From Candidatus Bathyarchaeota archaeon (GTDB lineage Archaea; Thermoproteota; Bathyarchaeia; Bathyarchaeales; Bathycorpusculaceae): 64,000 nt of DNA. A model generated the notes under the pieces. The model was not told where the DNA came from and searched no databases. It saw only the letters and a list, made by a program, of their open reading frames with translations. The stretch's first letter is position 1; every line of letters starts with the position of its first letter. Made by a program: the position numbers and the translations under genes. The stretch lies in contig JAMDCQ010000020.1 of assembly GCA_023488905.1 (NCBI GenBank), forward strand, positions 1 through 64,000, given 5' to 3'. This document shows positions 25,252 to 49,925 of the stretch, in pieces.

Positions 25252-25275
25252 TCCATGTTGTGGAGGTGAAATTGG

Positions 25276-25446: not shown

Positions 25447-25485
25447 GTCAGCGTTCAAGTTTTTGGTTTATTCAAGTTTTTTAAT

Positions 25486-25794: not shown

Positions 25795-25894
25795 CCGTCT
25801 TTTTTTGTGGTTGCTCGGTGAGCCCACATACCCTTAAGGCACATCATTCAGTAGAAAAAATTAGACCTGATTCTTTTTTGGAGGTGAATAATTT

Positions 25895-26149
25895 TTGGCG
25901 ATGAAAAGTGAACAAAAAAGAAAAATGACTCGACAAGAAGCAGGTAGAATCGGCGGAAAAAAGGTTGCCCGCGAAAGAGGACCAGAATTTTACCGCGCTA
26001 TCGGCAAGAAGGGCGGCGAAACAGTGGCTGAGCAGCGTGGCTCAGAGTTCTATCGAGAAATAGGCAGAAAAGGCGGTGAAAGCAGAAGCAACAAAGCAAC
26101 CAGAAATAGAAGTGCAAAGTCAAAGCGTGCATCAAGAAGAGGCGCTTGA
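25895..26149 (+). CDS. KGG-repeat stress protein 6
   Basis: GRIGGKKVARERGPEFYRAIGKKGGETVAEQRGSEFYREIGRKGGES; GGAGGTGA then TTG. Confidence 0.85.
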   Translation: MAMKSEQKRKMTRQEAGRIGGKKVARERGPEFYRAIGKKGGETVAEQRGSEFYREIGRKGGESRSNKATRNRSAKSKRASRRGA

Positions 26150-30945: not shown

Positions 30946-31030
30946 AAACGTAGTCTCTCATTTGCTGAGAGAATTTCCCTTTTATTAAACAACCTTTTTT
31001 GAAGATATTTGTTGTCTTGTGCTGACTGCG

Positions 31031-31161
31031 TTTTCTATTTAGTAGTTGTTGCCGAACCCCCTCTTGTTTCAACAACAACCCGCGGCGCGTGTGGACGGTT
31101 GCGTTTTTGCTTTGGACGCGGGTTTGGGTTGCTAGCTGGTTGTGGCGAATTCTGCAAGCAG
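31031..31161 (+). ncRNA. Candidate structured RNA family, copy 3 (divergent)
   Basis: Shares ttgctagctggttgtggcg and ...gcaagcag with the copies at 41472 and 49758; hairpin GTTGTTG/CAACAAC replaces AGAAGA/TCTTCT. Confidence 0.4.
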
Positions 31162-31247
31162 CATAATCATTTTCGAAGGTTTTGTTATCGGTCAACTAGC
31201 TGAAACCGTCGCATACTCTATAGTTTTTCCTAATGTATCTGAGCGGT

Positions 31248-31979
31248 TTAGCCGAACAGTTGAGACAGGTTTTTGCCCACTGAGTGAAGATCGCTTGCTA
31301 TTTCGTCTGGCCTCTGCTTGCTGTCGTGGAGGTCTTTTAAGCTGTTGAACTGGGAAGACACAAACACCGTCCGCAACCCCACATCTTTAGCGCCCTTAAT
31401 GTCCTCAAGCGGGCTGTCGCCGACAAAAACCGCCTCCTCCGCCTTCACCTCCAACCGCCCAAGCAATTCATGGAAGATGTCTGGGCAGGGCTTTCTACAT
31501 CCAACCTCGTCAGATACGACTATAGCGTTGAAGTATCGGGGTATGCCGACTTTTCTTAGGCTCTTGTGTATGACTGGGGCATGAGTGAAGTTGCTGATTA
31601 AGCCAACTTTGGTTTGGGCAGAGGTTTGTTCCAGTAGCTGTTTGGCGCCTTCCCGCAACTCGAGCGTATCGATGAAATCCTGAAAGAACACGTTTAATGC
31701 GGCTTTGATACATTCATCTTCTGGTGTAACCCTGTAGCCCAAGCTGCACAGCGCCTCCGCAACCCAAATCGCGTTGGTTACTTCTTTGAATTCTTCGTAG
31801 CGGATTCTGCGGTACTTAAGGTGTGCAATGTGGTAGGCGTCTAGGAATTTGGTTTTGGTTATGTCGAAACCTTCGGCGACGAGGGCGGAGAAGAGGTTGT
31901 TTTCTGAGGCGGTCATGCTGTAGCCTTTGCAGTTGACGAGTGTGCCGATGTAGTCGAAGATTACTGCTTTTAGACTCAT
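31248..31979 (-). CDS. HAD-superfamily hydrolase
   Basis: AVIFDYIGTLVNC, GLISNFTHAP, GCRKPCPDIF, VFVGDSPLEDIKGAK. Confidence 0.9.
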   Translation of the reverse strand: MSLKAVIFDYIGTLVNCKGYSMTASENNLFSALVAEGFDITKTKFLDAYHIAHLKYRRIRYEEFKEVTNAIWVAEALCSLGYRVTPEDECIKAALNVFFQDFIDTLELREGAKQLLEQTSAQTKVGLISNFTHAPVIHKSLRKVGIPRYFNAIVVSDEVGCRKPCPDIFHELLGRLEVKAEEAVFVGDSPLEDIKGAKDVGLRTVFVSSQFNSLKDLHDSKQRPDEIASDLHSVGKNLSQLFG

Positions 31980-32716
31980 TTGCGGTTTCCCTTTGCGGCT
32001 TTTTTGATTTGTTCCAAGGCTTTTCCTATCTCTGTGTTGAGTAGGCAGTCTGGGTTGCCGATTGCAGCTTCCACCTGCGGGTCATAGGCAACTGAACCCA
32101 GATACTTCAGCCCCAACTTGGCCGTTTCGTGCTCTATAGCGTCTGAGCTGTCTCGCTTCATGTTCTCAATGACCCCGACGACGGGCATGTTTAGTTCACA
32201 TAATAGTTGAACTTGTTTTTTGACGACTTCGAAAGCCAAAAGCGACGGTGTAGTGACGATTAGAAATTCGATTCGCTTAACCAGCCGAACCAAATCGAGG
32301 ACAGCGTCACCGATACCTGGCGGCATATCAATTATCAGAAAGTCCAGTTCGCCCCATTGGGTGACAGACAAAAGCTCGATTAAAGCGTTGGAGACGTCTG
32401 CCCCACGCAGAGGAGTTGCCTTATCCCCAGCAAAGTAAACCAGCGACATAAACTTGAACCCTTCAACGGTTGCTGGTACGATGCCCTTGTCTTCTGTGGG
32501 CTGCACAGATTGGGGCACACCTAAAATGATATGGGTTGAGGGACCGGTGAAATCTACATCGAACAAGCCAACGCGGGAGTTTTCTTTTGTAAGCGAGAGC
32601 GCCAGTGCGGTGGCGATCATGCTTTTGCCTACGCCGCCTTTTCCGCTGGAAACGGCGATTATCCGCTTTATCCGCGCTAAACGGGTGCTGATTACGCTTG
32701 TCCTCGGGTCAATCAC
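31976..32716 (-). CDS. Mrp/MinD-type ATPase, probable archaeal ATPase-type HypB
   Basis: Deviant Walker A IIAVSSGKGGVGKSMIA; overlaps hypA by 4 nt. Confidence 0.8.
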   Translation of the reverse strand: MIDPRTSVISTRLARIKRIIAVSSGKGGVGKSMIATALALSLTKENSRVGLFDVDFTGPSTHIILGVPQSVQPTEDKGIVPATVEGFKFMSLVYFAGDKATPLRGADVSNALIELLSVTQWGELDFLIIDMPPGIGDAVLDLVRLVKRIEFLIVTTPSLLAFEVVKKQVQLLCELNMPVVGVIENMKRDSSDAIEHETAKLGLKYLGSVAYDPQVEAAIGNPDCLLNTEIGKALEQIKKAAKGNRK

Positions 32717-33117
32717 TCAGTTTTGACTCCTTTGATGTCCTCGAGCCAGATGCCGCGTCCGCTTGCGATTTCAAAGTCAGGACTGCCACATTTCGGGCAC
32801 TTAATGTAAGAGTGCGCCACTTCGGGCACGAAGTGTATGGCTTCGGCGGTGGCTTTGTCGAGTTTTTTCTGGTTGTACTGCCAAGTGGTTCCGCAAACCC
32901 GACACTTCAATGTCGATTTGGCTTTTAGGATACGGTATTTTGCGCCTCTTAAGATGCCGTCGCCCATCTGTTTGAGGGCAAAACGTAGAATCGGCGGTTC
33001 AACCTGCTGAAGCGCCCCCACTCTAATGGTGACTTCCGACACGGAACAGAGGTGCTCTTGCTCAGCTATTTGCCGTGCCGTCGCGAGAATGCCTTCAGCT
33101 AATGCCCACTCATGCAT
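32713..33117 (-). CDS. hypA: Hydrogenase maturation nickel chaperone HypA
   Basis: MHEWALAEGIL; CRVCGTTW...CPKCGSPDFEIASGRGIWLEDI. Confidence 0.9.
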   Translation of the reverse strand: MHEWALAEGILATARQIAEQEHLCSVSEVTIRVGALQQVEPPILRFALKQMGDGILRGAKYRILKAKSTLKCRVCGTTWQYNQKKLDKATAEAIHFVPEVAHSYIKCPKCGSPDFEIASGRGIWLEDIKGVKTE

Positions 33118-33285
33118 ACCTAAAGAGGCAAAGTGCAGAAATAAAAGAATATTGCAAACGTAAACAATTTTGAAACGATAGTAAACTTAAACACCGAACT
33201 GCTTTCCCGGCGGGGAGCGGTTTCTGGTTGACTGTGCAAAGCCTTAAAATGCTTAGCCATCCACGTTAAGGCTTGGTGAACCCAC

Positions 33286-34584
33286 ATCAAAGTCATAGCT
33301 GACCTGCACATTCACGGCCGATACAGCCGCGCAACCAGCGAACAAATGAACCTAGCCGAAATCGCGAAATACGCCAAAATCAAAGGCCTAAACCTCGTCG
33401 GCACAGGCGACTTCACCCACCCCCTGTGGCTCAAAGAAATCCGCGAAACCCTCAGCCCCGAACAGGACACGGGACTGCTTAAACTCGCCAAAGGGGATTC
33501 GCCTATTCGGTTTATGCTTCAAACTGAAGTCTGCACAATTTTCGATTATCAAGGTGAATCCAAAAAGGTTCACCACGTCATTTTAGCCCCCAGCTTGGAG
33601 GTCGTAGACCAAATCAATGAGCGCCTCAAACGCTTCGGCGACTTAGCTTCCGACGGCAGACCCATCCTCGACGCCACCGCGCCCCAACTGGTTGAAGAAG
33701 TCATGGCAGTCAGCGGCGACAACATGGTTTTCCCCGCGCATGCTTGGACACCATGGTTCAGCATCTTCGGCGCATTCAGCGGCTTTGACACCATCGAAGA
33801 CTGCTACCAAGACATGACCAAATACATTCACGCTCTCGAAACGGGGCTCTCCTCAGACCCGCCCATGAATTGGAGGCTAAGCAAACTCGACCGCTATGCG
33901 CTGGTCTCAAACAGTGACTGCCACAGTTTTTGGCCTTGGCGCATCGGCAGAGAAGCCAACGTCTTCGATCTTCCCGACTTTACCTACAATAATGTAGTGT
34001 CTGCGGTTTCTGACAATGACCCTGAGCGCTTCAAGTTTACAATCGAAACTGACCCAGCCTATGGCAAATATCACTGGACAGGGCACCGCAACTGCAAAGT
34101 GTCGCTCTCGCCTCCTGAAGCCATCAAATTCGGCAACGTCTGCCCCGTCTGCCGACGAAAACTGACCAAAGGCGTCGAGCAACGCGTCGAAGAACTCGCC
34201 GACCGACCTGCAGACTACAAACAGCCAAACGCCCCCGGATTCAAACGTCTTTTACCGTTGTCTGAGATCATCTGCGCCGTTTTGGGAACCGATTCGCCTG
34301 CCATCCAAGCAGTCTGGAAACCCTACAATGCGCTTGTGGAGAAATTCGGCGACGAATATACAGTGCTACTTGATACGCCGTATGAGGCAATGGCTTTAGT
34401 TGTGGATGCACCGTTTGCGCAGGCAATCGTTAAGGTTCGGGATGGCACTGCTAAGGTGACGCCGGGCTATGACGGCGTGTACGGACAGCTGGTTTTGGGT
34501 TCAGATGTCCCAGTGGTTAAGCCTAAGCCGCCACAAGCGCCGAAAGTACAGCAACGGAGCATGAGCGACTTCTTTGGCGCTTAA
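33286..34584 (+). CDS. PHP-domain protein (TIGR00375-like); apparent non-canonical ATC start
   Basis: (I)KVIADLHIHGRYSRATSEQMNLAEIAKYAKIKGLNLVGTGDFTHP; in-frame TGA at 33277; first ATG only at 33346. Confidence 0.8.
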   Translation: MKVIADLHIHGRYSRATSEQMNLAEIAKYAKIKGLNLVGTGDFTHPLWLKEIRETLSPEQDTGLLKLAKGDSPIRFMLQTEVCTIFDYQGESKKVHHVILAPSLEVVDQINERLKRFGDLASDGRPILDATAPQLVEEVMAVSGDNMVFPAHAWTPWFSIFGAFSGFDTIEDCYQDMTKYIHALETGLSSDPPMNWRLSKLDRYALVSNSDCHSFWPWRIGREANVFDLPDFTYNNVVSAVSDNDPERFKFTIETDPAYGKYHWTGHRNCKVSLSPPEAIKFGNVCPVCRRKLTKGVEQRVEELADRPADYKQPNAPGFKRLLPLSEIICAVLGTDSPAIQAVWKPYNALVEKFGDEYTVLLDTPYEAMALVVDAPFAQAIVKVRDGTAKVTPGYDGVYGQLVLGSDVPVVKPKPPQAPKVQQRSMSDFFGA

Positions 34585-35906
34585 GCGTGGGCTATGAAGG
34601 TTTTTCCTGCAAAGTTAGGCGACGGCGAATCACCCGTCCAGAGGTCGCTTGAAACCAGCGCTTCTCCAGCGTAGCCGTAAGCCACCGACACAGAATCCTG
34701 CATCCAATAGTAAGCGCAGACGCCTATGCTGAGGTCCTTGGCGTTTTGGAGGATGGCAGTCCAGAAGTCATATTCACGTTCTCGTCTCTGCGCTAAAGTC
34801 ATGTTGCCTCCGCCGAACCGTTCCTCGACGCTTGACCAATAGTTGTAAATGAAATCCGCATCCAAGACACCCATCTCGTTGAACACCAACGGCACAGTGC
34901 AGTTGATGCTTCTTGTCTGGGGCACCATATCCACAGAGTTTAGTTGGCTTTTAACCGCTTCATAGGTGTTTGCCCACTGCAGGTTGGGGTAAGGTGAATG
35001 CATGTAAGTGTGCGTAGTAAAGGCTACATTGAGGGGTGCTTTGCCCATGGCGTTTTCTAGTTGGCTGTAGAGTTCAGGTGCCCAAGTGAGACTCTGCCAC
35101 CCCGGCACAATACCCACCTGCCACTGCATAAATACCAAATTCTCGTTGCCTAAGCCGCGGATGGTTTTGTAAGCTTCAACAATGTAGTTGAAGAAGGCGG
35201 TTTTAGTGTCGCCGGGTTCATTCCACAACTCAAAAATCACGTTGCCATATCCACCCAGCCGCTCTACGACGCTGGCCCACCATAGATGCCAAAACTCCAT
35301 CTCACTTCGCCCTGCATCGGCGGTGACGCTTTGGATGAACTGGTAGCTGGCGGTGTTTGGCACCCATGTCCCGGGTTCCCCTTCGAAAGTTCGGCTGAAC
35401 AGGTAGCCGTTCACGGCGCTGTAGGGGCATAAATCGACGTAAATGCCGTATTTGGCGGCTTCTTGAACCAGCGTTTCGAGGTAGAGTCGGAAGCTTATGG
35501 TTACGTCGGCGACTTGGGGCTCATAAGTGCTGCGTGAGATGTTGTCTATCCACCACCAGTCCACGGGTATGAAGACGCGTATCATATTGACGTGCCAGTA
35601 GTCACGGTAGCACTGCAGCGTCGCATCCATTTTGGGCAGGTTCTCCTCTATGGGCAACCATTTTTGGGTCCAACTAAAAACCTGCTCCCCTGGCCCCGAC
35701 CACATGCCAGACGGAGACTGCAAATCCCCCGAGCGCCCAATCCCTCGTAAATAAACCACATTACCGTAAATGTCCAGGATTTTGTAGCCTGACGTGTGTA
35801 GAGCCATCGATTTGGCTAGGTCTAAACGGTAAGAATTGACCAGCAATGTCGCTATCAATGCGGCAACTAAAACAGAAACCACGCATGCAGCGAGTTTTTT
35901 GTTCAC
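34581..35906 (-). CDS. Secreted glycoside hydrolase (cellulase/GH5-like)
   Basis: Signal anchor; YGNVIFELWNEPGD and FNEMGV catalytic-type motifs. Confidence 0.75.
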   Translation of the reverse strand: MNKKLAACVVSVLVAALIATLLVNSYRLDLAKSMALHTSGYKILDIYGNVVYLRGIGRSGDLQSPSGMWSGPGEQVFSWTQKWLPIEENLPKMDATLQCYRDYWHVNMIRVFIPVDWWWIDNISRSTYEPQVADVTISFRLYLETLVQEAAKYGIYVDLCPYSAVNGYLFSRTFEGEPGTWVPNTASYQFIQSVTADAGRSEMEFWHLWWASVVERLGGYGNVIFELWNEPGDTKTAFFNYIVEAYKTIRGLGNENLVFMQWQVGIVPGWQSLTWAPELYSQLENAMGKAPLNVAFTTHTYMHSPYPNLQWANTYEAVKSQLNSVDMVPQTRSINCTVPLVFNEMGVLDADFIYNYWSSVEERFGGGNMTLAQRREREYDFWTAILQNAKDLSIGVCAYYWMQDSVSVAYGYAGEALVSSDLWTGDSPSPNFAGKTFIAHA

Positions 35907-36076
35907 TAAAACGCCTCTCCAAAACGTTGTGGCTTAAACTGCGGAGAAGAGATTCAATTAAAGAAGACGTGTACTGATTTTTAAAGCGTACTGTCGAGCG
36001 CTTAGTAGACTAGGCGCAGAAAGCAAAATCGTTTTATGCCCCACAAAAATCTAGTACCGCTATAGGACCGATTATC

Positions 36077-37426: not shown

Positions 37427-37441
37427 GAGTAAGCGAGGTGG

Positions 37442-38812
37442 TTGTCGGTGGCAGTGCTTGAAAAAAACACCATGCTCAACTTAGCCGAAAACACAGTGAA
37501 AGCGGCGCTTAGGCTGGGAGCAGCGGAAGCAGAAGCTTACGTCTACGACGGCCAGGCAGTTAACATCGGGGTAGAGTTGGGGCAAATCAGCAAAACCAAC
37601 CGCATCATCGACCGCGGCATAGGCGTGCGACTCGCCGCAAACAAGGCAATCGGCTTCGCCTACACTAACATAGTCAACGACCAAAACGCCATAGAAACCG
37701 TAGTTGCCCGTGCACTCGGCGCAGCGAAGGCAAGCAAACCTGACTCTGACTGGAATGGGCTGCCCCAAAAGAAGCCATACGGCGCCACTGTGGGCACTTT
37801 TGATGAGAAAATCGTCGCATTAAGCCCTGAGGATTTAGTTAAAGTTACTTCGGCGATGTTGGATGCTGCGGGCGGGGTGGATAAGCGTGTGTTCCCAATC
37901 GAGGGCGGAGTTGGAAGTGGCTGCGTTTCAGCGGCTATCGCCAACTCCAGTGGCGTCACTGGCTACGATAGGGGCACAATCGTCGAGTGCAGTCTGGCGG
38001 CGCTGGCAAAAGAGGGCGGTGCAGTGACTCCGATTTGCTTCGAATTCAACGCCTCAAGAAACTACCGCTTAGATCCCGAGTGGGTGGGCAGGGAAGCAGC
38101 CAAACTTGCAGTCTCGGCGCTAAGACCTAAACCAGTCGAGAGCAAAACCGCTAAAGTCATCTTGACCCAATTCGCCCTCCAAGACCTCTTCGCATACACG
38201 CTTATGGGGGCGATAAAGGCGGACAGTGTCCAGAGAAACCAATCGCCGTTTAAGGGAAAAATCGGTGAACAAGTCGCCTCAGAAAACCTCACCATCTACG
38301 ACGACGGTTTATACCCCGCTGGACTGCGCACCTCCGTATTCGACGGAGAAGGCGTCCCCCGCCAAAAAACGCCTATCATCGAAAAGGGCGTTTTGCGTAA
38401 CTTCATCTACGACAGCTACACAGCCAATAAAGAATCAAAGGAAAGCACAGGCAATGCCTCTCGCGCAGGTTACCTCTCCACGCCAGGAATCGAAACCACC
38501 AACTTCCACATAGCCTCAGGCAACAAAACCACAGAACAAATGTTCTCTGAAGTCGGCGACGGCTTAATCATCTACTACCTGCAGGGCGCACACAGCAGCA
38601 ACCCAGTTAGCGGAGAATTCTCTGTGGTGGCGACGCCGTGCTGGAGAATCAAAGACGGCGAAATTGCGCATTCATGCAGAGGCGTGATGCTGGCAGGCAA
38701 CATCTTTGACCTCCTCAAAAACATCACGGTAGTTGGGGGCAATGAGCGGCAGATGGGTTCAATGATTGCGCCATGGGTGATAGTGGAGAATATGCGGGTA
38801 ATCGGCAAATAA
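37442..38812 (+). CDS. tldE: TldE/PmbA-like partner
   Basis: PmbA-type sequence directly downstream of tld[53 protein letters not shown]. Confidence 0.88.
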
Positions 38813-38818
38813 TCCGAA

Positions 38819-38856
38819 ACCACGCGACCTCTCAGCGGCCACCTCCCCTCCCTTAT
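38819..38856. repeat. Left part of a dispersed repeat split by the IS
   Basis: accacgcgacctctcagcggccacctcccctcccttat; 34/38 identical to 49712-49749. Confidence 0.8.
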
Positions 38857-39969
38857 CAGTAGATCAAAAATTGCATGACTTTTCACCCACCCACCTCAAT
38901 ATCGGGCAACCAAGACAGGACTAAACACAACCTAACAGCATTCTTGAGCGCATACGCCCGAACACGTCTTCTACGCCTAAAATTCCACAAAACCCACAAA
39001 TTATACAAAACCACCGCCAAAAAGAAAAACAAAAGCCTCAACCTATACAGCCTCGAGGTAGTTTTAGCCAAAAACAACCCAATCAACCGATAACTAGTCT
39101 CAATCCCCCAACGCCGCCTAAACAGCTCCTTGAGCCTTCTGGGCTTAAACAGGGTATTAGTAGCAAAAACAAGCAATCTCTTACTCTGACGCATAGTTAC
39201 AAGCCTAAAAGACGCCTGCTCAAAAGCTGACCTCTTATGCGTAGTCGTAGTATAAACCACATCCAACCCTGCCTTTAAGGGATCTTTATGCCAAGGAATA
39301 TGCATGATATAGCTGATTTTAGAGGCATCTAGATACCTTATCACTTGGGTAGAGAAGTAGCCTCTATCCAACAGCACCAGCTTAACTGTTAAACCCAAAT
39401 CAAAGACGCATTTTAAAAGATACTTGACATGCCAAAGCTTGCTTTTACGCATCATCGGCACAGCTGCCATGGTTAGTCTCTGGCTGTTCCAGAGCACGCT
39501 CACGGTTGCATACCTATAAGCGTGATTTGAGCCATTCTTGTGCTGTGTTCCAACGACGTCTCTTGCGTGGGGGTCGCCGTAGTACATTTCGTCATGCCAG
39601 TCTATTGCTATGATCAGTGGCTTAGACAAGGCGCCTTTTTGTTTCATTTTTGTGATTGTTTGTTGGTTGATTTGGAGTAGTTTTTGGGGGTTTAGTTGTT
39701 TTAGGTGGTTTCTGGCTGTTTGGCCGCAGAGGTTGAGGTTTTGGGCGCATTCTTCTATGTAGTTGTTGTCGATTGCGGCTAGGATGAGTGTTTTTGTGGT
39801 GTCTTTGCTGTTTCTGGCGTGTTTGTAGTCAAGGGAGTTGTTGATTGTTTGTTTAAAATATAAGTAAGCCTTTAGCTTATCTTTTCGTTTAGGGATAGTG
39901 CTGTAGCTAGTCATTTCAGTTACCAAAGCTGGTTACAGCGCTATTCCGATAAAAATTTTTGATCTACTG
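38857..39969 (-). mobile_element. Complete ISH3-like (IS4-superfamily) insertion sequence, about 1113 bp
   Basis: 16-bp terminal inverted repeats CAGTAGATCAAAAATT; TTAT target duplication at 38853-38856 and 39970-39973. Confidence 0.88.
38883..39926 (-). CDS. DDE transposase (ISH3-like)
   Basis: IAIDWHDEMYYGD, LVLLDRGYFSTQVI, FRRRWGIETSYRLIG (Y-(2)-R-(3)-E type). Confidence 0.88.
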   Translation of the reverse strand: MVTEMTSYSTIPKRKDKLKAYLYFKQTINNSLDYKHARNSKDTTKTLILAAIDNNYIEECAQNLNLCGQTARNHLKQLNPQKLLQINQQTITKMKQKGALSKPLIIAIDWHDEMYYGDPHARDVVGTQHKNGSNHAYRYATVSVLWNSQRLTMAAVPMMRKSKLWHVKYLLKCVFDLGLTVKLVLLDRGYFSTQVIRYLDASKISYIMHIPWHKDPLKAGLDVVYTTTTHKRSAFEQASFRLVTMRQSKRLLVFATNTLFKPRRLKELFRRRWGIETSYRLIGLFLAKTTSRLYRLRLLFFFLAVVLYNLWVLWNFRRRRRVRAYALKNAVRLCLVLSWLPDIEVGG

Positions 39970-40046
39970 TTATATAAAGAGAAAATGTTGTGGTTGTGTT
40001 GGTACTACTGCAAACGCTTTTACGCTAAAAAAAGCGCTGTTTTGAT

Positions 40047-40082
40047 GAGTGACTTACCCCATTTGGGTGAGCACTCTTTTTT
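40047..40082 (+). terminator. Strong stem-loop followed by T6
   Basis: GAGTG(A)CTTACCC-CATTT-GGGTGAG-CACTC then TTTTTT. Confidence 0.6.
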
Positions 40083-40108
40083 AGGCAGCAATAAGAGGCG
40101 CAGCATCT

Positions 40109-40459
40109 ATGGTTTTGGTTGAAGGGCTAGAAATGCAGGGTGAAATAATATCCAGATGGCAACTTGAAAAAGCATGGAACACGCTAAGCGACAAGCCCTT
40201 GCCTAAAGTCAAAATGCTACGGTTAAGCGACTACGACTTCGACCATGTGCTGGAACATAGACGATGCTTGGAGGATGACCTGCGGGAGATTGAAGAATGG
40301 GGACGTGTGTTATCCAAGCACGGTACAGACGCCTGCATCTTTAACGCCGAAGACATCGACGATGCAGATTACATCATACTGGTCAGGAAAAATCCGTATC
40401 ACAGTTTAGAAGAGATTATCCTTCACGAATTGGCACATATCGCCAGAGGCGACCTCTAA
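40109..40459 (+). CDS. Hypothetical protein with C-terminal HExxH motif
   Basis: EEIILHELAHIARGDL. Confidence 0.6.
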   Translation: MVLVEGLEMQGEIISRWQLEKAWNTLSDKPLPKVKMLRLSDYDFDHVLEHRRCLEDDLREIEEWGRVLSKHGTDACIFNAEDIDDADYIILVRKNPYHSLEEIILHELAHIARGDL

Positions 40460-41433
40460 CCCAACTTAGCCACTGTTTTGCTAAATAATTCGATTCCATC
40501 GGTGTTTGGCAAGTCGGCAAAGTACAGCATAAAATAAGTCACGCCCAAATCAGCGTAAACCCGCAAAGCTTTAACGCATTCGTCTGGTGTCCCTGCCAGA
40601 GTGTATTTTTTGAAATCTTCAAGCGAAGAACCGACGGGTTTGTACTTAGCGATCTTTAAGTCTAACGCTTTTTGGTCTTCTGTAACGAGAATTTGCCCGC
40701 TCGGCCAACAGGACCGCTCAATGTCCCCAAAATCTCTGCCGACGGCTCTGCAGTGCCGTTCTAAAACCGCAAGCTTACGCTTGTAATCCTCTATTGACGC
40801 CAAAAAGCCCCAGTCAAAGCGGTCTGCGTGTTTTGCGGTGACTTTTAGGGTGTATTTTTCGCCTGCTCCTCCGACGGTGATTGGGGGATGTGGTTTTTGT
40901 TTGGGTTTGGGTTCGCATACGGCGTCTTTTAGCTGGTAGTGTTTGCCAGAATAGTTGGCTTTTCTTTGAGTCCATAGCTGAGTGGTTACTTCCAGAGCTT
41001 CCCCCAACTGTGCGGCTCTAACAGATGACTTGGGAAAGTCGAAGCCGTACGCTGTGTGCTCATCTTCTTGTACGCCTGCGCCGATGCCAAATTCTAATCG
41101 TCCATTCGAGATTACGTCTATGGTTGCTGCTTGTTTAGCCAGCAAGGCGGGGTTTCGGTGGGCGTTGCAGGTCACCATGGTTCCAAGGCGGATTTTTTTG
41201 GTTGACGCTGCTAGGGCGGCTAGTGTGGTCCAGCATTCAAGGATTTGGGCGTTGTTGTACATGAGGTGGTCGTCTAGCCAGACTGAGTCATAGCCCGACT
41301 GCTCGCAGGTTAGAACGATTTTTTTGAGTTGATTATAGTATGGTTTGGGGTTTTGGGTTTGGAAAGCGTAGAAGGGGAGGAAGACTCCGAATTTCAGTTT
41401 ACCCAAATTAACCACTCTGAGCTGATTAAGCAA
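40456..41433 (-). CDS. LLM-class (F420-dependent-like) flavin oxidoreductase
   Basis: FGVFLPFYAFQTQ, DSVWLDDHLM, RNPALLAKQAATIDVISNGRLEFGIGAG. Confidence 0.9.
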   Translation of the reverse strand: MLNQLRVVNLGKLKFGVFLPFYAFQTQNPKPYYNQLKKIVLTCEQSGYDSVWLDDHLMYNNAQILECWTTLAALAASTKKIRLGTMVTCNAHRNPALLAKQAATIDVISNGRLEFGIGAGVQEDEHTAYGFDFPKSSVRAAQLGEALEVTTQLWTQRKANYSGKHYQLKDAVCEPKPKQKPHPPITVGGAGEKYTLKVTAKHADRFDWGFLASIEDYKRKLAVLERHCRAVGRDFGDIERSCWPSGQILVTEDQKALDLKIAKYKPVGSSLEDFKKYTLAGTPDECVKALRVYADLGVTYFMLYFADLPNTDGIELFSKTVAKLG

Positions 41434-41471
41434 CTATTGCGTTGGGCAGTAATAGCTTTAGCTGTAACAGT

Positions 41472-41646
41472 AAATCAGGGGGGTTCGGCGTGTTTTGTTT
41501 TTTTATTGTTAGAAGAAGAGAGTGCCGCCCTTATTCTTCATCTTCTCGGAAGCTTTGCTGTGCAGTGCTTTTTGGTGTCTGCGTCTGGGATGCGTTGCTT
41601 GCTGGTTGTGGAGCTTTCCTCAAGCGAAAGAAATTTTGATCTACCG
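41472..41646 (+). ncRNA. Candidate structured RNA family, copy 1
   Basis: Aligns with 49758-49925 along most of its length; hairpin AGAAGA...TCTTCT; ends TTTGATCTACCG. Confidence 0.5.
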
Positions 41647-41737
41647 ATAAATCGGCAGAGCGTATGGGAGACAGCGAAAGCAACAATATTTAAGAAGCCC
41701 ATCTTTCTTAGAGTACTTGTAGATTTTCAGCTGCTTC

Positions 41738-43432
41738 ATGTTCGAATTGAAGGTTTTTAGGGAAATTGCCATGAGAGAATTGGTTTTTCTTTTCCTTTTT
41801 CTATCTCTACTTCTTAGTCTTGGCGTTATTCTTCAATTCGGAGGCTCCGATTCCGAGGGCAATTTCGAGTTTATTGGGCTTGCAGGCTACATAACATCTC
41901 AAGCTGAACTTGAGAAAACAATCGAACTAATGGAAAACAAACACCTCAATGCCTACCGTGTTAGCTTTAGGCCGAGTTGGATTTCTCAAGAGGGGGAAAT
42001 CAAAGGTTACAATCCAGCTTGCATTGATTTTTTGCTTGTAAACACCAACTTTCTAGTTATTGTGGATGGAAACCACCTTTATCCCGCAACAGAGGGTTCC
42101 CTGTACGCTTACAATCACTGGGACCAAGTGAGAGGCAGAGTTTTTCAGGTTCTTGAAAGATACCCCAATAACTCTCGAGTGGCAGTGGAATTGATTAACG
42201 AGTACAATTTAGCTGACTATGACACAAAAATGCAAGACCTTATTGACGAGATTAGAAACGCAAGCTACAGCAATACCATCGTAACCAACAAACTCACTAC
42301 CAACTGGCACAAATTTGAGGACCCTTTAAACAACACCTATCAGGGCATGCATTTCTATTTCAACCACTGGAAAACTGATGGTGCATTAGCCCAGATGAAC
42401 AGAGCCATAAATCAGTATGGGATCACAAAAATCCTAAATACCGAAGTGGGAGCAAGCAGTGACGAATACAGGCAGTTCACTCAAACAAACGTCGATGAAC
42501 TGGAGGCATTTTTGATTCAGAGCCAAAGTTTAGGAGTTAGCAACTGTATATGGATGAATAACGACACCCAAAACTGGCAAGGGTACGCATTATACGATTT
42601 TTACCTCAACCCGCCCAATTCCACCCCGACACCAACCATCGAACCAACCTTGCCCCCAACACCTCCACCAACCTATGAACCCACAGCTACCCCAACACCA
42701 ACAGCCTCAACAACCCCCGAACCGACAAACACCCCACCACCCACGCCGCAGCCAATGCTATTTGCAGACAGCTTTGAAACACAAGGATTCAGCCAGTGGT
42801 CAGGGAGAGGGGGCGTCGGCACACACTCCGAAACAATAGAAAACAGGCACCCCCAAGATGGAAACTACAACGCACGATTCTCAGCAAACTCCCGCTCAGA
42901 AAGTTGGGCTTACAAGAATCTGCCATCTTCACCAGTTCTTTATTTTCAAGAGTATGTGAGAGTGAATAGTTTGCCGACTTATGGCAACCGGTTGTATTTA
43001 GGAACGATACAGGCGAACTCGCGTAATAGCGTGGAGGTGTTTATTGAAAATAGGGGAGGCAACTACTATTGGGGGTTGCTTACCTTGGTAAACGGGCGAT
43101 CTTACTTTAACCGTGAAGCTGTTGCCAGTAACCCCCACACAGGCACCTACTACGCGATAGAATTCTGCCGAGATACAGCGGAGGATAAGAGCAAGTTATG
43201 GGTGGATGGAACCCTGAAAATCGACGTTGACCGCGCTAATGCTGGAGGCGCCAACAGGGTTTACAGTGGAATAACGGGTACAAACGCAAAAAGCCTCGTG
43301 TACATCGACAACGTTAAGGTTTCGGATTCATACATCGGTATATCTAATTTTTTAGAGGACTTGCAGGCAGAACCCAATATTTCGCGGGGTTTCCCAGTTA
43401 TTTTTTCGGGCAGCGTATTGTTTTTCCTCTAA
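41738..43432 (+). CDS. Secreted glycoside hydrolase-like protein with Pro/Thr linker and C-terminal lectin/LamG-like domain
   Basis: VAVELINEYNLADYD and ILNTEVGASSDE catalytic-type motifs; PTPTIEPTLPPTPPPT linker. Confidence 0.65.
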   Translation: MFELKVFREIAMRELVFLFLFLSLLLSLGVILQFGGSDSEGNFEFIGLAGYITSQAELEKTIELMENKHLNAYRVSFRPSWISQEGEIKGYNPACIDFLLVNTNFLVIVDGNHLYPATEGSLYAYNHWDQVRGRVFQVLERYPNNSRVAVELINEYNLADYDTKMQDLIDEIRNASYSNTIVTNKLTTNWHKFEDPLNNTYQGMHFYFNHWKTDGALAQMNRAINQYGITKILNTEVGASSDEYRQFTQTNVDELEAFLIQSQSLGVSNCIWMNNDTQNWQGYALYDFYLNPPNSTPTPTIEPTLPPTPPPTYEPTATPTPTASTTPEPTNTPPPTPQPMLFADSFETQGFSQWSGRGGVGTHSETIENRHPQDGNYNARFSANSRSESWAYKNLPSSPVLYFQEYVRVNSLPTYGNRLYLGTIQANSRNSVEVFIENRGGNYYWGLLTLVNGRSYFNREAVASNPHTGTYYAIEFCRDTAEDKSKLWVDGTLKIDVDRANAGGANRVYSGITGTNAKSLVYIDNVKVSDSYIGISNFLEDLQAEPNISRGFPVIFSGSVLFFL

Positions 43433-43620
43433 ACTCAGCTTTTTTGCCCAGAATCACTACTTCAAGGAAACCGCTCATTTGTTACTATTTTGGACAGTTA
43501 ACCAAACATAAACGTTAAAAAATGCACATTTTCACCATAAAACACGCAAGGCAACCCAGATAAGTAATTATAATTCATAAAACCTATCTAAAACAAACCC
43601 AACCACCCCGTGACTTCCCT

Positions 43621-44136
43621 ATGCCGACTAAACCGCATTCCATATTCGACTTGATGAGTGAAGAAAGCGAAGCGGTTGATGAGGCAGAAGAAAAACGACG
43701 ACAACGCAAAGAACTTCTCGAGCCTACAGGCGTCAAAGACCTCTTCAAAGAGGGCAAAATCAGCATAAACAAGTTCACCTGCGTCGGCGGTCAATGCAAA
43801 CTCTGCATCAAAGCCTGCCCAACCAACGCGCTCTACTGGGGCACTGGTGAAGTCGGCATAGTCGATGACCTCTGCGTTTACTGTGGTGCATGTGTTGCCA
43901 GCTGCATGGTGGATGACTGCATAAAAGTTGAGCGCACAGGCGAAGACGGCAAAGTCGAGAAATTCAGCAAAATGTCCGATTTAATTAAGCTACAAGAGAA
44001 GAAGAACGCTAAAAAACGGTTTGAACGAGTGAAGTCAAACGCTATTCTGCTGAGACGGGCTTACAAAGAAAAAAACGAGACCAAGAAATATCGTGAGCAG
44101 CAGAAGCTCTATGTGGACCAAGAATACAGAATCTAA
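43621..44136 (+). CDS. 4Fe-4S dicluster ferredoxin-like protein
   Basis: CKLCIKACPTNALYW...DLCVYCGACVASCMVDDC. Confidence 0.88.
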   Translation: MPTKPHSIFDLMSEESEAVDEAEEKRRQRKELLEPTGVKDLFKEGKISINKFTCVGGQCKLCIKACPTNALYWGTGEVGIVDDLCVYCGACVASCMVDDCIKVERTGEDGKVEKFSKMSDLIKLQEKKNAKKRFERVKSNAILLRRAYKEKNETKKYREQQKLYVDQEYRI

Positions 44137-44145
44137 CGCGCCAAA

Positions 44146-45495
44146 TTATCTTTCAGGCTGGTAGTTAATGGGAAAAGCTACAATTATTTTTGTACCTTGA
44201 TTGGGGGTGCTCTCGACAGCGATTTTGCCGCTATGAGCTTCTACAAAGCGCTTGCAGACAGCCAAACCGAACCCCATACCCTTCGCCTTCGTCGTGAACA
44301 TAGGCGTAAACAGTTTTGAAAGGGTTTCTTGATTCATTCCTAAACCCGTATCTTGAAAGCTGAAAACGACGAAGTTGTGGCTTGTTCTTGTTTTGATGGT
44401 TAATTTTCCACCCTCAGGCATGGCGTCAAGAGCATTCTTGATTATGGCAACGAAGGCATGTTCAATCTTGAGGACATCGACCTCCAATACGGGTTTATCT
44501 GTTGTTTTGTTAACGATTTCGATGTTGGCGGGAACAGCTATCTGATTAAGGGACATGGTTGTTAGGGTCTTGGGGTCTGTCAGTGAGGGGTGCAATGTGA
44601 TGACTTGGGAGTAATCTATTAAATCGTTGATTATTTTGTCTGAACGCCTTATGCAATTGTCGATTTCATCTAGCATCTCCTTGCAAACAGGGTCATCCTT
44701 TGCGATTCCGTTGTGCGTTTTGAGGTAATATGTGGCGCTTCTGATGCCCTGTAAGGGATTCCGGAGGTCATGCCCAATTATTCCCGCTAATTCCCCGATA
44801 GCCGCCAACCGCTCCGCTTTGAGCAGTTTCGCCTCCATCTCCTCGAGGTTTTTGTTTGCCTCTTCCAGTTTCTTCTCTAAGAGGATAAAAGAGGGCAGGC
44901 TGCTTGGGTTCACGGTTTGGGGTCCATTAAACATAAAAGCAATGAAGACCAACCCAAAAATGGCAAGCATCACGGGTATATCTACTGAAGTACCAAGATC
45001 AATAACAACGCCCTCGAACAAAAAGCATAAAGTAGCAATCAAAAAATGAAGATCCGCAGAACCTCTGCTTTTAGCGAAAATGTAAACCATAATCGGAACG
45101 GCGGTTCCCATGAAAAAGACCATTAACCCTAGACGTAAAGGTGCAAATGAGAACTGAGCGAAAAAGGCCGCCAGAGAAAGTACCGCCCCAATCATGAAGA
45201 CGATAAATGGAATTTGGAAATTGTTGACTTTGAAAAGACTTGACAACGCAGCGATCGCAACTGCGAGAGCCATCGGTATGAACAGCCATTCTCCAGAAGG
45301 AAAAACGGGTGTTCTGCCCAAGCTTTCTATTAGCGGTGCATAAAACCCGAAAGCTGATATGAAAAGGCCGAATGCGAAAACAAGTTTACGTTTGTTTTTG
45401 TCTTTAAAATAAAGATATGTAAGTACAAGTGAAAGTATCAGTGAAGCAAGGAAGGGGACGAACAAAAATAGGCTGTCTTTTAATTGTTGATACAT
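44146..45495 (-). CDS. Membrane sensor histidine kinase
   Basis: Multiple TM; IGHDLRNPLQGIRSATYYL H-box; FQDTGLGMNQE, TKAKGMGFGLAVCK. Confidence 0.93.
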   Translation of the reverse strand: MYQQLKDSLFLFVPFLASLILSLVLTYLYFKDKNKRKLVFAFGLFISAFGFYAPLIESLGRTPVFPSGEWLFIPMALAVAIAALSSLFKVNNFQIPFIVFMIGAVLSLAAFFAQFSFAPLRLGLMVFFMGTAVPIMVYIFAKSRGSADLHFLIATLCFLFEGVVIDLGTSVDIPVMLAIFGLVFIAFMFNGPQTVNPSSLPSFILLEKKLEEANKNLEEMEAKLLKAERLAAIGELAGIIGHDLRNPLQGIRSATYYLKTHNGIAKDDPVCKEMLDEIDNCIRRSDKIINDLIDYSQVITLHPSLTDPKTLTTMSLNQIAVPANIEIVNKTTDKPVLEVDVLKIEHAFVAIIKNALDAMPEGGKLTIKTRTSHNFVVFSFQDTGLGMNQETLSKLFTPMFTTKAKGMGFGLAVCKRFVEAHSGKIAVESTPNQGTKIIVAFPINYQPER

Positions 45496-45667
45496 TCATT
45501 TCCTCTACCGCTGAAACTGTTCTGCCGCTGAAAACACTCTGGTTGATTTAGCCACTTAGTGATTTGTGTGTCATTCCAGCAATGAACACTGCTAAAAAAA
45601 CAAAAGCAGACAGGAAAACTGATAAGCAAAAACATTATTCTACACCAAACACAAGGAAGAAACTGTT

Positions 45668-46684
45668 ATGAGTAAAACTTACACTATAGCCGCGCTTAAA
45701 GGCGATGGCATCGGACCCGAGGTCACCGAGGCAACTGTCAAGGTGCTTGAGGTCGTTGAAAAGAAATCCAAGTTCAAACTTAACATTCTCTATGGAGAAG
45801 CAGGAGCCCACTGCATTCCACAACACGGAACAAACTTGCCCAAAGAAACCGTGGAACTCATCAAAAAAACCAACGCGTGCCTTAAAGGCCCCATGACCAC
45901 CCCTGAAGAAGCAGGTGCACCCGTTAGCGTCGCCGTTACACTCAGGCGAATGTTTGGGTTATATGCGAATGTTCGTCCATGCCGCACTTTTCCAAACGTC
46001 GAATCCCTCAAACCCAACATTGACCTCGTTGTAGTTCGAGAAAACACTGAAGGACTCTACTCAGGTGCGGAATCGCTTTTGGCTCCAGGCGTCGGCGTAG
46101 CACTTAGAATCATCACTCATGAAGCGTCACTAAAAGTAGCTGATTTCGCCTTCAAGTTGGCCATGCAACGCAGAAAGCACCTCACTTACATCCACAAAGG
46201 TAACATATTGCGCATAACCGACGGGATATTCAAAGACGCAGTCAAAGAAGCTCAAAAGAAGTACCCAGAAGTCGAAGTAGACGACTTACACATCGACGCA
46301 GCCACCATGCAACTCATAAAGCAACCAGAAAAATACGATGTCATGGTCACAACCAACCTGTTCGGCGACATTATCTCTGACGAGGCGGCGCAGGTTACAG
46401 GCAGCTTAGGCTTAGCGGCAGGTGCAAACATCGGCGAAACCTACGGCATGTTCGAACCAGTCCACGGCTCAGCACCCAAATACACAGGCATGAACCGCGT
46501 TAACCCCATTGCAACCATAATGGCAGGCGCCATGATGCTGGATTGGCTAGGCGAGAAAGCTGGGGCGAAGAAAATTGAGGATGCCGTGATTGCGGTGCTC
46601 AAAGAGGGCAAAGTCCGCACACACGATTTAGGCGGCCAAGCCAAAGGCACAGAAATCACAGACGCCATCGTAGCAAAAATCTAA
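45668..46684 (+). CDS. Isocitrate/isopropylmalate dehydrogenase family protein
   Basis: IAALKGDGIGPEVTEATVKVLE; NLFGDIISDEAAQVTGSLGLAAGANIG. Confidence 0.93.
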   Translation: MSKTYTIAALKGDGIGPEVTEATVKVLEVVEKKSKFKLNILYGEAGAHCIPQHGTNLPKETVELIKKTNACLKGPMTTPEEAGAPVSVAVTLRRMFGLYANVRPCRTFPNVESLKPNIDLVVVRENTEGLYSGAESLLAPGVGVALRIITHEASLKVADFAFKLAMQRRKHLTYIHKGNILRITDGIFKDAVKEAQKKYPEVEVDDLHIDAATMQLIKQPEKYDVMVTTNLFGDIISDEAAQVTGSLGLAAGANIGETYGMFEPVHGSAPKYTGMNRVNPIATIMAGAMMLDWLGEKAGAKKIEDAVIAVLKEGKVRTHDLGGQAKGTEITDAIVAKI

Positions 46685-46710
46685 CCATCTTTTTCTTCTT
46701 TTTTGTTTTT

Positions 46711-47559
46711 TTAGTTTACTGAAACGAATGTGTTAGAGTCCACGTGGACTTCAACGGAGCCATTGTTTGCCGACTTTATCCGCGCGTTAACAACTAAAAG
46801 ACGCGGGCTTTCACGCAGCAGCCGCTCAAGCTCCTTAACCTTCTCGTTCCAAACAACCACCACAACCTCGCCAGAATCGTCCCTCAACGCCAACCGCATA
46901 ACCACCCCATCCGTGTCGTCGCCTCGGGTGAACCCGTTTTTGCCATAAACTGCTTTCACGGTGCCACAAACGTGAACATTGCCCATGTTGCTGTTTAGGG
47001 TGCTGATTTTTGTGGTGAACCGCTCGATTGGTGGAATTTCGGTTTTTTCTGGGGGGAGCGGTTCGATTTGGCTTTTGTTGCCCATGTGTAGCTCGGTTTT
47101 GCCGTAGCGGTCTTCGCGCGTGTACCCATGCAAGAGGCGAACGGTTTGTCCAGCTTTTAATTCTCCGCGCTCAACTAACTCGGCTTTCTCATTCCACAAA
47201 ACAACCCTCAAGAGGCCATCGCAGTCGCCCAGCATCAAAGTTGTGAATTTGCCAGATTTTTCCTCACCCTGAAAAGTCTTAACGGGAAAAACCACGATTA
47301 AACGCCCCGCAACGTTGACATCGTACAAGCCTGCGATCAGTCGCCCCGAAGTTATGGTGCCGCAGCTCTGGAAGTTGTTCTGCTGAACCGAAACTCCCAG
47401 CTTGGCGGCAATCAACCGCAGAAGCGTTTCGTCACCCAATAAGCCGTTGGTTCTAGCCCTCTCGTGCGCCAGTTGCTCTAGGAGTTGGGCTTGGGTTATC
47501 TGTGTGTTTTTGGCAGTAATCTCCTCGATCAGGTCTTGGGTGGTCATGTGTGCCGACAC
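46711..47559 (-). CDS. RPA-like OB-fold single-strand DNA-binding protein
   Basis: Two OB-fold segments ending DGLLRVVLWNEKAELV and SGEVVVVVWNEKVKEL. Confidence 0.78.
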   Translation of the reverse strand: MSAHMTTQDLIEEITAKNTQITQAQLLEQLAHERARTNGLLGDETLLRLIAAKLGVSVQQNNFQSCGTITSGRLIAGLYDVNVAGRLIVVFPVKTFQGEEKSGKFTTLMLGDCDGLLRVVLWNEKAELVERGELKAGQTVRLLHGYTREDRYGKTELHMGNKSQIEPLPPEKTEIPPIERFTTKISTLNSNMGNVHVCGTVKAVYGKNGFTRGDDTDGVVMRLALRDDSGEVVVVVWNEKVKELERLLRESPRLLVVNARIKSANNGSVEVHVDSNTFVSVN

Positions 47560-47635
47560 GATTAAGCAGTGCAGGCGCTTTTAATTTTTTGCCCTTCCCC
47601 GCGGCGTTGGCTACGTTTATTAAAAGCGCGGAACC

Positions 47636-47917
47636 ATGTTTTGGTGGTGCACTCGCTTGGAACTGTCGGCTTTTGTCACAATCGGTATGGCGCTGGTGAT
47701 AGTCGGCGTTATCTTGATTGTAGTGGCGCTTGTCCGTGCCTCAATGGGCGGCGAAAAAAGCGGGGATAGTCGAGTGCGCGGAGCAGGGGTAATTATGATT
47801 GGGCCGATTCCGATTGTTTTTGGGACGGATAAGCAGTCGGTTAAGGCGGTTTTGGCGTTGGCGCTATCGGTTGTTGTTTTGGTTACGTTTGTGGTGTATT
47901 ATTGGATGTTGAGGTAG
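47636..47917 (+). CDS. DUF131 family small membrane protein
   Basis: GIALVIVGVILIVVAL...GAGVIMIGPIPIVFGTD. Confidence 0.75.
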   Translation: MFWWCTRLELSAFVTIGMALVIVGVILIVVALVRASMGGEKSGDSRVRGAGVIMIGPIPIVFGTDKQSVKAVLALALSVVVLVTFVVYYWMLR

Positions 47918-48214
47918 ATGAGCGCGGTAAGCGAACAAAGCGAGGAGAATGGGGTTGCTGTTTCGGGTAGAACTGTGGGTTTGCTGCTGGCTGGGTTTGC
48001 GCTGGTTTTAGTTGGCATCGTCGTCATAGTTGTGGCGACACTGGTTTTTGGCAACGGTGGAAGCGTGGGCGGCGTAATCCTAATCGGACCCATACCAATC
48101 TTTTTCGGCTCCGGTCCAAACGCCACATCGCTAATCGCCCTAAGCGTAATCCTAACTATAATCAGTATAGTTATGTTTATTGTGCTGAACAGACGAACTA
48201 AAAGAAGCAGCTAA
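47918..48214 (+). CDS. DUF131 family small membrane protein (tandem paralogue)
   Basis: LVLVGIVVIVVATLVF...GGVILIGPIPIFFGSG. Confidence 0.75.
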   Translation: MSAVSEQSEENGVAVSGRTVGLLLAGFALVLVGIVVIVVATLVFGNGGSVGGVILIGPIPIFFGSGPNATSLIALSVILTIISIVMFIVLNRRTKRSS

Positions 48215-48222
48215 AAAGCGGT

Positions 48223-48345
48223 TTATTCTTCTGGTTTCTTTTCTTCTTTGCCGTAGTAAGCGTACAGGAAGATCAACGCTAAAGCAATGCCAATTGAGCC
48301 CATCAAGATGTACTGGAGTGTTATGAAGTATTCGCTTAATCCCAT
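48223..48345 (-). CDS. 40-aa single-TM microprotein (absent from the ORF track)
   Basis: MGLSEYFITLQYILMGSIGIALALIFLYAYYGKEEKKPEE; classic TM plus charged tail. Confidence 0.6.
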   Translation of the reverse strand: MGLSEYFITLQYILMGSIGIALALIFLYAYYGKEEKKPEE

Positions 48346-48418
48346 TGAGGTTCCTCTGTATATCTTACTGTTGTAGCAACTTACATATTTAAATCTAAAC
48401 CCAAAACAGCCCTTAAGC

Positions 48419-48859
48419 CTAAACTTCTTTTTTGACCTTGTCAGCAGGCGGCTTTTTCCATTCGTTCATGAGCATGTCGTAGCATTCGTCGTTTTCCTCA
48501 TAAGTTTTGTACCAGCCGAGGTTTTGGGCAAGCTTCTGGGTGAGCAGGTGGTAGCACATGTGGACTTTTTTGTCGAGCACTCGGAAGTAGAAGTCATCGC
48601 AGGTGCAGAATTCAGCTTCGGGCATGATGAGGTAATCGCGTTCCCTGCCGACCACAATCCAAACAACTCTGCCTGAAGGCTTAAACGTGTATTTTTTTAC
48701 TCTGCCCTCGGTGACTGCGTCTAGGGCTTTGGTGAATCTTTGCCCGAAGAGTTCGTAGAGGTCGTTGAGGTTGTCCCCTGAGAGTTTACCTACTGTTTTG
48801 GCTTCTCTGCAGATAGCGTTTAGGGTTTCAACCTCAGAGTTATCGCTCATCGTGCTCAA
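48419..48859 (-). CDS. SWIM zinc-finger-like protein
   Basis: CTCDDFYFRVLDKKVHMCYHLL (CxC...CxH). Confidence 0.75.
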   Translation of the reverse strand: MSTMSDNSEVETLNAICREAKTVGKLSGDNLNDLYELFGQRFTKALDAVTEGRVKKYTFKPSGRVVWIVVGRERDYLIMPEAEFCTCDDFYFRVLDKKVHMCYHLLTQKLAQNLGWYKTYEENDECYDMLMNEWKKPPADKVKKEV

Positions 48860-48889
48860 GCTACTAATAAGGTGAAGAGAATTTAGCTT

Positions 48890-49498
48890 TTAGCCTATGT
48901 TTATGGGTTCGCCTTTGCTTTTGGATGGCTCCTGCTTTGGCAAGACGACTTCTAATACGCCGTTTTTGTAGGTTGAGGCGGCTTCTTTGACTTTGACTTT
49001 GGCGGGCAACGCTACCTCCTTGTAGTACTTGTTCTGGGGCGTATCGACGGAGATGTCTATTGAGTCTTCGGTTCCGTGCAGTTTGATGTCGGTTTTTTCG
49101 ACTCCGGGTAACTCGGCGACTACGCGGACCTCGGTTTCGTTTTCCACGATGTCCACGAGTGGTTCGCGTTCCTCTTTGACTTCGGGGGGTCCTTTGAGGC
49201 CTTTTTTGATGTTGCCGAACTCTTGGATTTCGGGTTTGCCGTCGGGTCCGATTTTCATGCTGTAACCGTAAACGAATGGTCCAAGTTCCTTCACCGTGCT
49301 GCCGTCTGGCAACTTGCGTTCCTTCACGTATTCTTTGGGTACTTTTTCGGTGAAGTCTTTGAGTTCCTCATCCATCATCTTCTCCATTTCTTTGAACATA
49401 TTGTCTATGTCACCGAAGAAGGGGTCTTTGGATGGGTTGCGGCGTTTTTTGAACCATTCAGGAAAATCCTCGTTGTCTGATGACACACAGTTCACCAA
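48890..49498 (-). CDS. Hsp20 small heat-shock protein
   Basis: Alpha-crystallin domain: EVRVVAELPGVEKTDIKLHGTEDSIDISVDT...YKNGVLEVVLPKQ. Confidence 0.92.
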   Translation of the reverse strand: MVNCVSSDNEDFPEWFKKRRNPSKDPFFGDIDNMFKEMEKMMDEELKDFTEKVPKEYVKERKLPDGSTVKELGPFVYGYSMKIGPDGKPEIQEFGNIKKGLKGPPEVKEEREPLVDIVENETEVRVVAELPGVEKTDIKLHGTEDSIDISVDTPQNKYYKEVALPAKVKVKEAASTYKNGVLEVVLPKQEPSKSKGEPINIG

Positions 49499-49645
49499 GA
49501 TATTGAGGGGTTTTGGAAGCCAATAAGTTTATTGTTAGAAACAGGTGGCTTCATCATATCTCGGATGCGGGTTTGCGTTGCCTATAGAAATTAAAATCAT
49601 TTTTCCAGCGTTTTGGCCTTGTTTTTGGGTTAAAGGAATTATAGC

Positions 49646-49680
49646 TGCGATTTTTGTACTATACCCCCCTTGTTTAAAGG
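49646..49680 (-). promoter_or_regulatory. Promoter-like element, minus strand, shared with 23805-23838
   Basis: Reverse complement cctttaaacaaggggggtatagtacaaaaatcgca. Confidence 0.45.
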
Positions 49681-49711
49681 CGCATACGAAACCGTATCCG
49701 AACAAACAAAA

Positions 49712-49755
49712 ACCACGCGACCTCTCAGCATCTACCTCCCCTCCCTTATATAAAG
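49712..49755. repeat. Intact copy of the dispersed repeat disrupted by the IS at 38857
   Basis: accacgcgacctctcagcatctacctcccctcccttatataaag. Confidence 0.75.
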
Positions 49756-49757
49756 GC

Positions 49758-49925
49758 AAATCAGATGGTTTTGGGTTTTTTTGTTTTTATCGTAGAAGAA
49801 GAGAGTGTCGCCCCTATTCCTCCTCTTCTCGGGAAGCTTTGTGGCGGCTGCTTTTTTGCGTCTGGGAATGCGTTTCTGGCGGGTTTTGGAGCTTTCGCAA
49901 GCAGACCCAAAACTTTGATCTACCG
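49758..49925 (+). ncRNA. Candidate structured RNA family, copy 2
   Basis: Aligns with 41472-41646; TATA-like ttatataaag just upstream; hairpin AGAAGA...TCTTCT; ends TTTGATCTACCG. Confidence 0.5.

Follow-up and report, generated by a model that had tools for sequence, protein, structure and literature searches.

A dispersed, modular hairpin repeat of Bathyarchaeota with a subset bounded by ISH3-type ends

Are the three look-alike intergenic segments in the first 64,000 nucleotides of a Candidatus Bathyarchaeota contig (assembly GCA_023488905.1, contig JAMDCQ010000020.1; this whole stretch is referred to as the window) genes for a structured RNA, or are they mobile DNA? The first-pass annotation of the window described them as a family of three copies and left both possibilities open. 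The copies are indeed there, with covariance-model matches at 31020-31164, 41484-41630 and 49767-49907 that are all full length and on the + strand, but their number was set too low, because the same model detects 114 copies in the 1.79-Mb genome. The element, here termed R1, is an intergenic sequence of about 145 nt and represents a non-coding, hairpin-forming, dispersed repeat of its own genus and of some sister genera. In our judgement it is probably a modular and mobile repeat family that is older than its capture by ISH3-type ends.

The covariance model was built from 52 R1 copies and comprises 147 positions, all of which (147/147) are covered by nearly all of the 114 matches, while a blastn search with the copy at 41480-41650 retrieved only 45 matches from the same genome, which is an incomplete assembly of 23 contigs and whose archaeal identity is borne out by a 16S match. 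On the + strand, the core consists of a T-rich start, a first hairpin (H1), a middle part with TTTTTGG..GTCTG and a 3' hairpin (H3) that ends in CAAGCAG. The features of the three window copies are the following, with bit scores from the covariance model and inverted ends as described below.

31020-31164, + strand: R1 copy of the GTTGTTG/CAACAAC type without ISH3-type ends; full length, 110.5 bits; belongs to the class without a residual terminal inverted repeat.
31045-31076, + strand: hairpin H1 of this copy, arms 31045-31051 and 31070-31076, from sequence; the arms pair in the minimum-free-energy fold.
31136-31161, + strand: hairpin H3 of this copy, CTGGTTGTGG / CTGCAAGCAG, from sequence, helix counts and the minimum-free-energy fold.
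41468-41646, + strand: R1 element with diverged terminal inverted repeats, CAGTAAATCAGG at 41468-41479 and TTTGATCTACCG at 41635-41646.
41484-41630, + strand: R1 core of this element, AGAAGA/TCTTCT type, 125.1 bits.
41511-41546, + strand: its hairpin H1, AGAAGA 41511-41516 and TCTTCT 41541-41546, from sequence and fold.
49767-49907, + strand: R1 core, AGAAGA/TCTTCT type; full length, 85.2 bits, the weakest of the three.
49794-49829, + strand: its hairpin H1, AGAAGA 49794-49799 and TCTTCT 49824-49829, from sequence.
Ending at 49925, + strand: right terminal inverted repeat TTTGATCTACCG of this copy, whose start adjoins a TATA-box module.

The H1 arms thus lie where the first-pass annotation had placed them (41511/41541, 49794/49824 and 31045/31070). 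Its ends for two of the copies, 41646 and 49925, are those of the right terminal inverted repeat TTTGATCTACCG and not of the core, and its outer CTGCT...AGCAG stem is better seen as the local hairpin H3, whose consensus CTGgTTGTGG..CCACAAgCAG is present in most copies.

The distribution of R1 is patchy. At E<=0.001 it was found in 15 of the 32 genomes of the genus, the own genome included, with 1 to 114 copies each; among the other species 14 of 31 are positive, with 1 to 92 or more copies, and sister genera harbor few. The genome of another genus contains a single copy of 111 bits (G096:C23:44516-44662, locus L304) that adjoins a tRNA-like 3' end and possibly reflects recent transfer or contamination. 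Nothing on the family turned up among open-licence papers, and pattern scans with the H3 motif returned one unrelated-looking match from GTDB 220 and none from IMG/VR contigs, collections from which near relatives were perhaps left out. The intergenic placement proposed for all copies is broadly borne out, with 11 of 114 overlapping regions called coding by a rough, home-made gene finder based on codon usage. The orientation of R1 relative to the neighbouring genes is random, which argues against a role as untranslated-region (UTR) element, riboswitch or gene-tied terminator, and we have discarded these candidates. The same applies to a tRNA-adjacent integration site: few copies follow tRNA genes or 5S-like sequence, near chance expectation. 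About ten of eleven copy pairs that are less than 500 bp apart, counted by hand from the covariance-model list, share the same orientation.

The first-pass annotation took the replacement of the H1 stem sequence with preserved pairing as the mark of a functional RNA. Several arm types occur, namely GTTGTTG/CAACAAC, AGAAGA/TCTTCT, GGAAGATG/CATCTTCTTCC and mixed types, and pairing is again found in relatives (e.g. GTTGATG/CATCAAC in G062 of a sister genus). An arm-swap test, which compares the own partner arm with those of other copies, returned z-scores of -5.5 for the own genome, -4.6 for relatives and -1.6 for another genus. In H1 and H3, 86.3% of cells are paired, whereas shuffles reach 80.9+-0.5%; the respective covariation scores are 0.205 and 0.133+-0.007. 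The claim thus holds between arm types; within them it fails (z about 0), the H1 arms of some recombinant copies are unpaired, and a home-made G-test with a tree-based null yields no left-right pair with E<1, the best value being about 5. The pairing evidence is therefore based on few events: H1 pairing is kept between few arm types that stand for few independent changes. Moreover, a replaced stem with intact pairing could also come from module swapping or from template-switch repair of a palindrome. The covariance-model search that the first-pass annotation had proposed brought many extra copies, and covariation exceeds that of shuffles but is not significant with the tree-based null.

These data bear directly on the view that R1 copies are genes for a functional structured RNA, expressed as small RNAs from the + strand, dispersed by mobile ends and kept for the function of the RNA, which we regard as rather unlikely. 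It would explain why arm types retain their pairing across species, why unpaired motifs are invariant and why conservation is equal in copies with and without terminal inverted repeats. Column conservation is very uneven (variance/mean 14), with 12 columns at 97% or more and 26 below 50%. The H3 cells contain 123 G-U against 22 A-C combinations on the + strand, an excess that favours this strand if R1 acts as RNA, and the fold z-scores of R1 (-0.84 on the + and -0.61 on the - strand) are slightly below those of the flanks (-0.24 and +0.13). Yet folding of the three copies in the window is not superior to that of shuffles, and the mispaired H1 arms and the covariation results given above count against an RNA gene as well. 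So do copy numbers that vary among species between 0 and 114 within a single genus, the T-run that precedes H1 on the proposed strand and the lack of a common promoter on the left side. No Rfam match beyond tRNA and rRNA was obtained in the window or at the R1 loci, even at E<=1, and a known structured RNA was accordingly discarded as a candidate. As far as the sequences tell, an RNA function of R1 is possible.

Some R1 copies are bounded by terminal inverted repeats (TIRs) of the form CAGTAGATCAAAA...TTTTGATCTACTG, which are the ends of an insertion sequence located in the window between the first two R1 copies.

38857-39969, - strand: ISH3-like insertion sequence of 1113 bp with the TIRs CAGTAGATCAAAAATT...AATTTTTGATCTACTG, matching at 14 of 14 positions and flanked by TTAT on both sides.
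38883-39926, - strand: gene of a DDE transposase of 347 amino acids (Pfam DDE_Tnp_1, E=1.1e-11; NCBIfam ISH3 family, E=4.3e-51).
38853-38856, + strand: left 4-bp target duplication TTAT, from sequence.
39970-39973, + strand: right 4-bp target duplication TTAT, from sequence.

DNA homology to the relative G011 breaks off at 38815 and restarts at 39976, close to the ends of the insertion sequence. Published features of the ISH3 family include CRGT ends and direct repeats of 4-5 bp (PMC2266710), and the window element agrees with this archaeal family in its ISH3-related DDE transposase, its CAGT ends, its 4-bp TTAT duplication and its archaeal host. It differs in its length of 1113 bp compared with 1225-1500 bp (PMC2266710), in an NCBIfam score of 173.8 bits that is under the 225-bit cut-off, and in the Y-(2)-R-(3)-E-(3)-R motif, where the transposase reads F for Y. 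With the TIRs in common, the insertion sequence is a candidate supplier of transposase for R1.

Both TIRs are present in 23 of the 114 own copies, one is present in 32 and none in 59; calls allowed up to 3 mismatches in 12 (own script), and the one-sided class includes chance matches. The TIR-bounded elements measure 163-184 bp, and no conserved open reading frame was noted inside. Taken together with a longer sister family that has the same ends, 12 of 32 TIR-bounded elements exhibit a perfect 4-bp duplication, compared with 5.5 expected from crossed flanks, and most of the targets, once rebuilt, are TATA boxes, among them CTTTATATAAGG and CCCTTATATAAAG. The R1 subset with ISH3-type ends behaves like MITEs (miniature inverted-repeat transposable elements). 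It is not an internal-deletion derivative of the window insertion sequence, a candidate that was rejected because only the short ends are in common.

Some observations weigh against our overall reading. Of the 32 TIR-bounded elements, 20 lack a perfect 4-bp duplication; a frequent combination of left-hand TTAT with right-hand ATAA would require an exchange of flanks to agree with a simple duplication; a search for clean empty sites yielded none, the best candidate being C17:14713, which differs from G011 by ~144 bp, about one R1 length, and could be a deletion in the relative; and at E<=1e-10 the window transposase has matches in only three of the 32 genomes of the genus, being absent from most R1-bearing relatives, including genomes with TIR-bearing copies. 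The TTAT/ATAA flanks could have arisen by recombination between copies, and at L045, a copy of this type, the left and right flanks match different G011 contigs, in line with such an exchange.

The MITE-like character proposed at the outset applies to the subset with ISH3-type ends but not to the family as a whole, as the ends are missing from half of the own copies and from another genus. The flanks of TIR-less copies display no TIR similarity above background, their cores are full length with model scores equal to those of other copies, and none of the 12 copies inspected in G062 has TIRs. Accordingly, TIRs are not a defining part of R1. An ordinary MITE family, in which the TIR-less copies are old and decayed, appears improbable to us. 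Direct repeats of MITEs are normally lost over time (PMC10969869), copies with a single TIR exist, and copies of like TIR status group together on the tree (19 changes versus 34 in shuffles), all of which would suit decay. Nevertheless, decay accounts poorly for equal scores and full-length cores next to flanks without residual TIRs, for the sister genus in which 0 of 12 inspected copies have them, and for the fact that R1 and the insertion sequence have only short ends in common. Furthermore, 29 TIR-less copies carry a TATA-box tail instead.

These tails, of two main types, are found in 29 of the 114 copies and mostly lie 44-52 nt from the core. Modules with a TATA box are also dispersed, one type reading ACCACGCGACCTCTCAGC..ACCTCCCCTCCCTTATATAAAGG and another with CCCCCCTTATTTAAAGG at its end, and their conservation is much longer than that of an ordinary promoter. 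The window contains two modules of type B, and further modules are located at 49652-49690 and 23804-23833.

38808-38856, + strand: TATA-box module B, interrupted by the insertion sequence (repeat D8; sequence).
49701-49749, + strand: TATA-box module B adjoining the R1 copy at 49767 (repeat D8).

R1 together with the downstream module could be conceived as a cis-acting promoter or insulator cassette, in which the T-run stops upstream transcription and is followed by hairpins and a TATA box. A T-run borders nearly every copy on its left side, and in 29 copies one of two tails lies at a nearly fixed distance from the core, which would fit. However, 85 of 114 copies lack a tail, the right-hand neighbour gene is often distant and shares the strand in no more than 16 of the 27 cases that could be scored, and the modules are numerous without R1 (about 35 matches in G011 versus 15 R1 copies). 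We therefore consider this cassette very improbable.

The longer sister family comprises 254-278 bp between the same TIRs as R1 and has a similar layout (CTCTTTATGTGGGTGTTTTGGTTTACGGCACACCAC...). It is represented in the own genome by the loci L031-L038, L048, L056, L062-L065 and others, and often directly follows an R1 copy with a TATA tail. Profile homology between the two families is marginal, with E=0.007 over a small set.

The modular composition of R1 extends to the core itself. Across copy pairs, identity of the 5' half (H1) hardly correlates with that of the 3' half (H3; r=0.11), and some pairs combine 98% identity in one half with 53% in the remaining half, so that R1 copies are mosaics. 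Eleven sites that the own genome shares with relatives harbor R1 in both. In the informative alignments the relative's copy is 56-74% identical to the own copy, which is nearly always closer to its own paralogs; depending on the site, 2 to 109 own copies surpass the positional counterpart in their score against the relative's copy. Identity of the adjacent flanks reaches 89-95% in the closest relative. The simplest reading is an exchange of the occupants of shared sites, by gene conversion or repeated insertion.

In each of the four most similar R1 pairs (93-98%), the two copies lie on one contig at a distance of 3 to 41 kb and have opposite orientations (C17:161573/176170, C14:20338/23586, C18:126621/151000 and C9:51647/93113), as expected from gene conversion or hopping at a local scale. 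The window segment from 38815 to 49543 is inverted or translocated relative to contig C15 of G011. Breakpoints of the own/G011 rearrangement lie at R1, at TATA modules and at the insertion sequence, and the flanks of other R1 copies likewise correspond to different contigs of G011.

We thus favour a family of modular hairpin repeats that predates its ISH3-type ends. A subset would have been captured between such ends and moved in trans, in the manner of MITEs, by an ISH3-like DDE transposase with a preference for TATA boxes. The TIR-less copies would be older, or may have spread by recombination or gene conversion between copies; alternatively, a putative enzyme that reads hairpins might have moved them. 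The constraint on hairpins and motifs would stem from mobility or from an RNA product, and the present data fit both. A bolder version, possible but doubtful, would make the core of R1 a self-standing element with a structure of its own, in the form of RNA or single-stranded DNA, that spreads independently of TIRs and swaps modules at fixed intergenic sites across a family of archaea, ISH3-type ends having captured it only later.

Among known systems, R1 is reminiscent of the MITEs of archaea and bacteria, such as those of Sulfolobus and Haloquadratum and QMITE of Coxiella (reviewed in PMC10969869): these are likewise short, non-coding, intergenic and multi-copy with a stem-loop interior, and the R1 subset shares its TIRs with a resident insertion sequence and in part has apparent short target duplications. 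Unlike in MITEs, half of the R1 copies lack TIRs, the interior is conserved and modular, and TIR-less copies occur in another genus.

The genes around the window copies encode a ferredoxin and a HAD hydrolase (copy 31020), a luciferase-like monooxygenase and a GH5-like protein (copy 41484), and an HSP20-like protein and a homocysteine-biosynthesis enzyme (copy 49767). A third intergenic repeat, CTATAGGTTTCTGCATACATCTGATATTTGGATCCTAATATGTCCACGAAAAACGC, is found at several loci (L026 around 1500-1900 and the right flanks of C9:91203 and C18:193163). The window also contains an array of repeated coding units at 23997-26078 with a KGKMTVEEAG...EFYSEIGxKGG pattern and several tandem paralogs.

Dispersed, modular and hairpin-forming intergenic repeats are known from bacteria, including the BOX elements of Streptococcus pneumoniae, REP/BIME, ERIC and Correia, some of which have mobile relatives. 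R1 resembles them by description only: their hosts are bacterial, and R1 differs by two captured forms, R1 itself and the longer sister family, with ISH3-type ends. The dispersed repeats of archaea have been little described, and R1 provides a natural series for how archaeal non-coding repeats spread, recombine and are kept. Since R1 is often located at TATA boxes and synteny breakpoints, it may shape gene expression and gene order. If its core were indeed self-standing, R1 would represent a new archaeal class of hairpin-directed mobile repeats.

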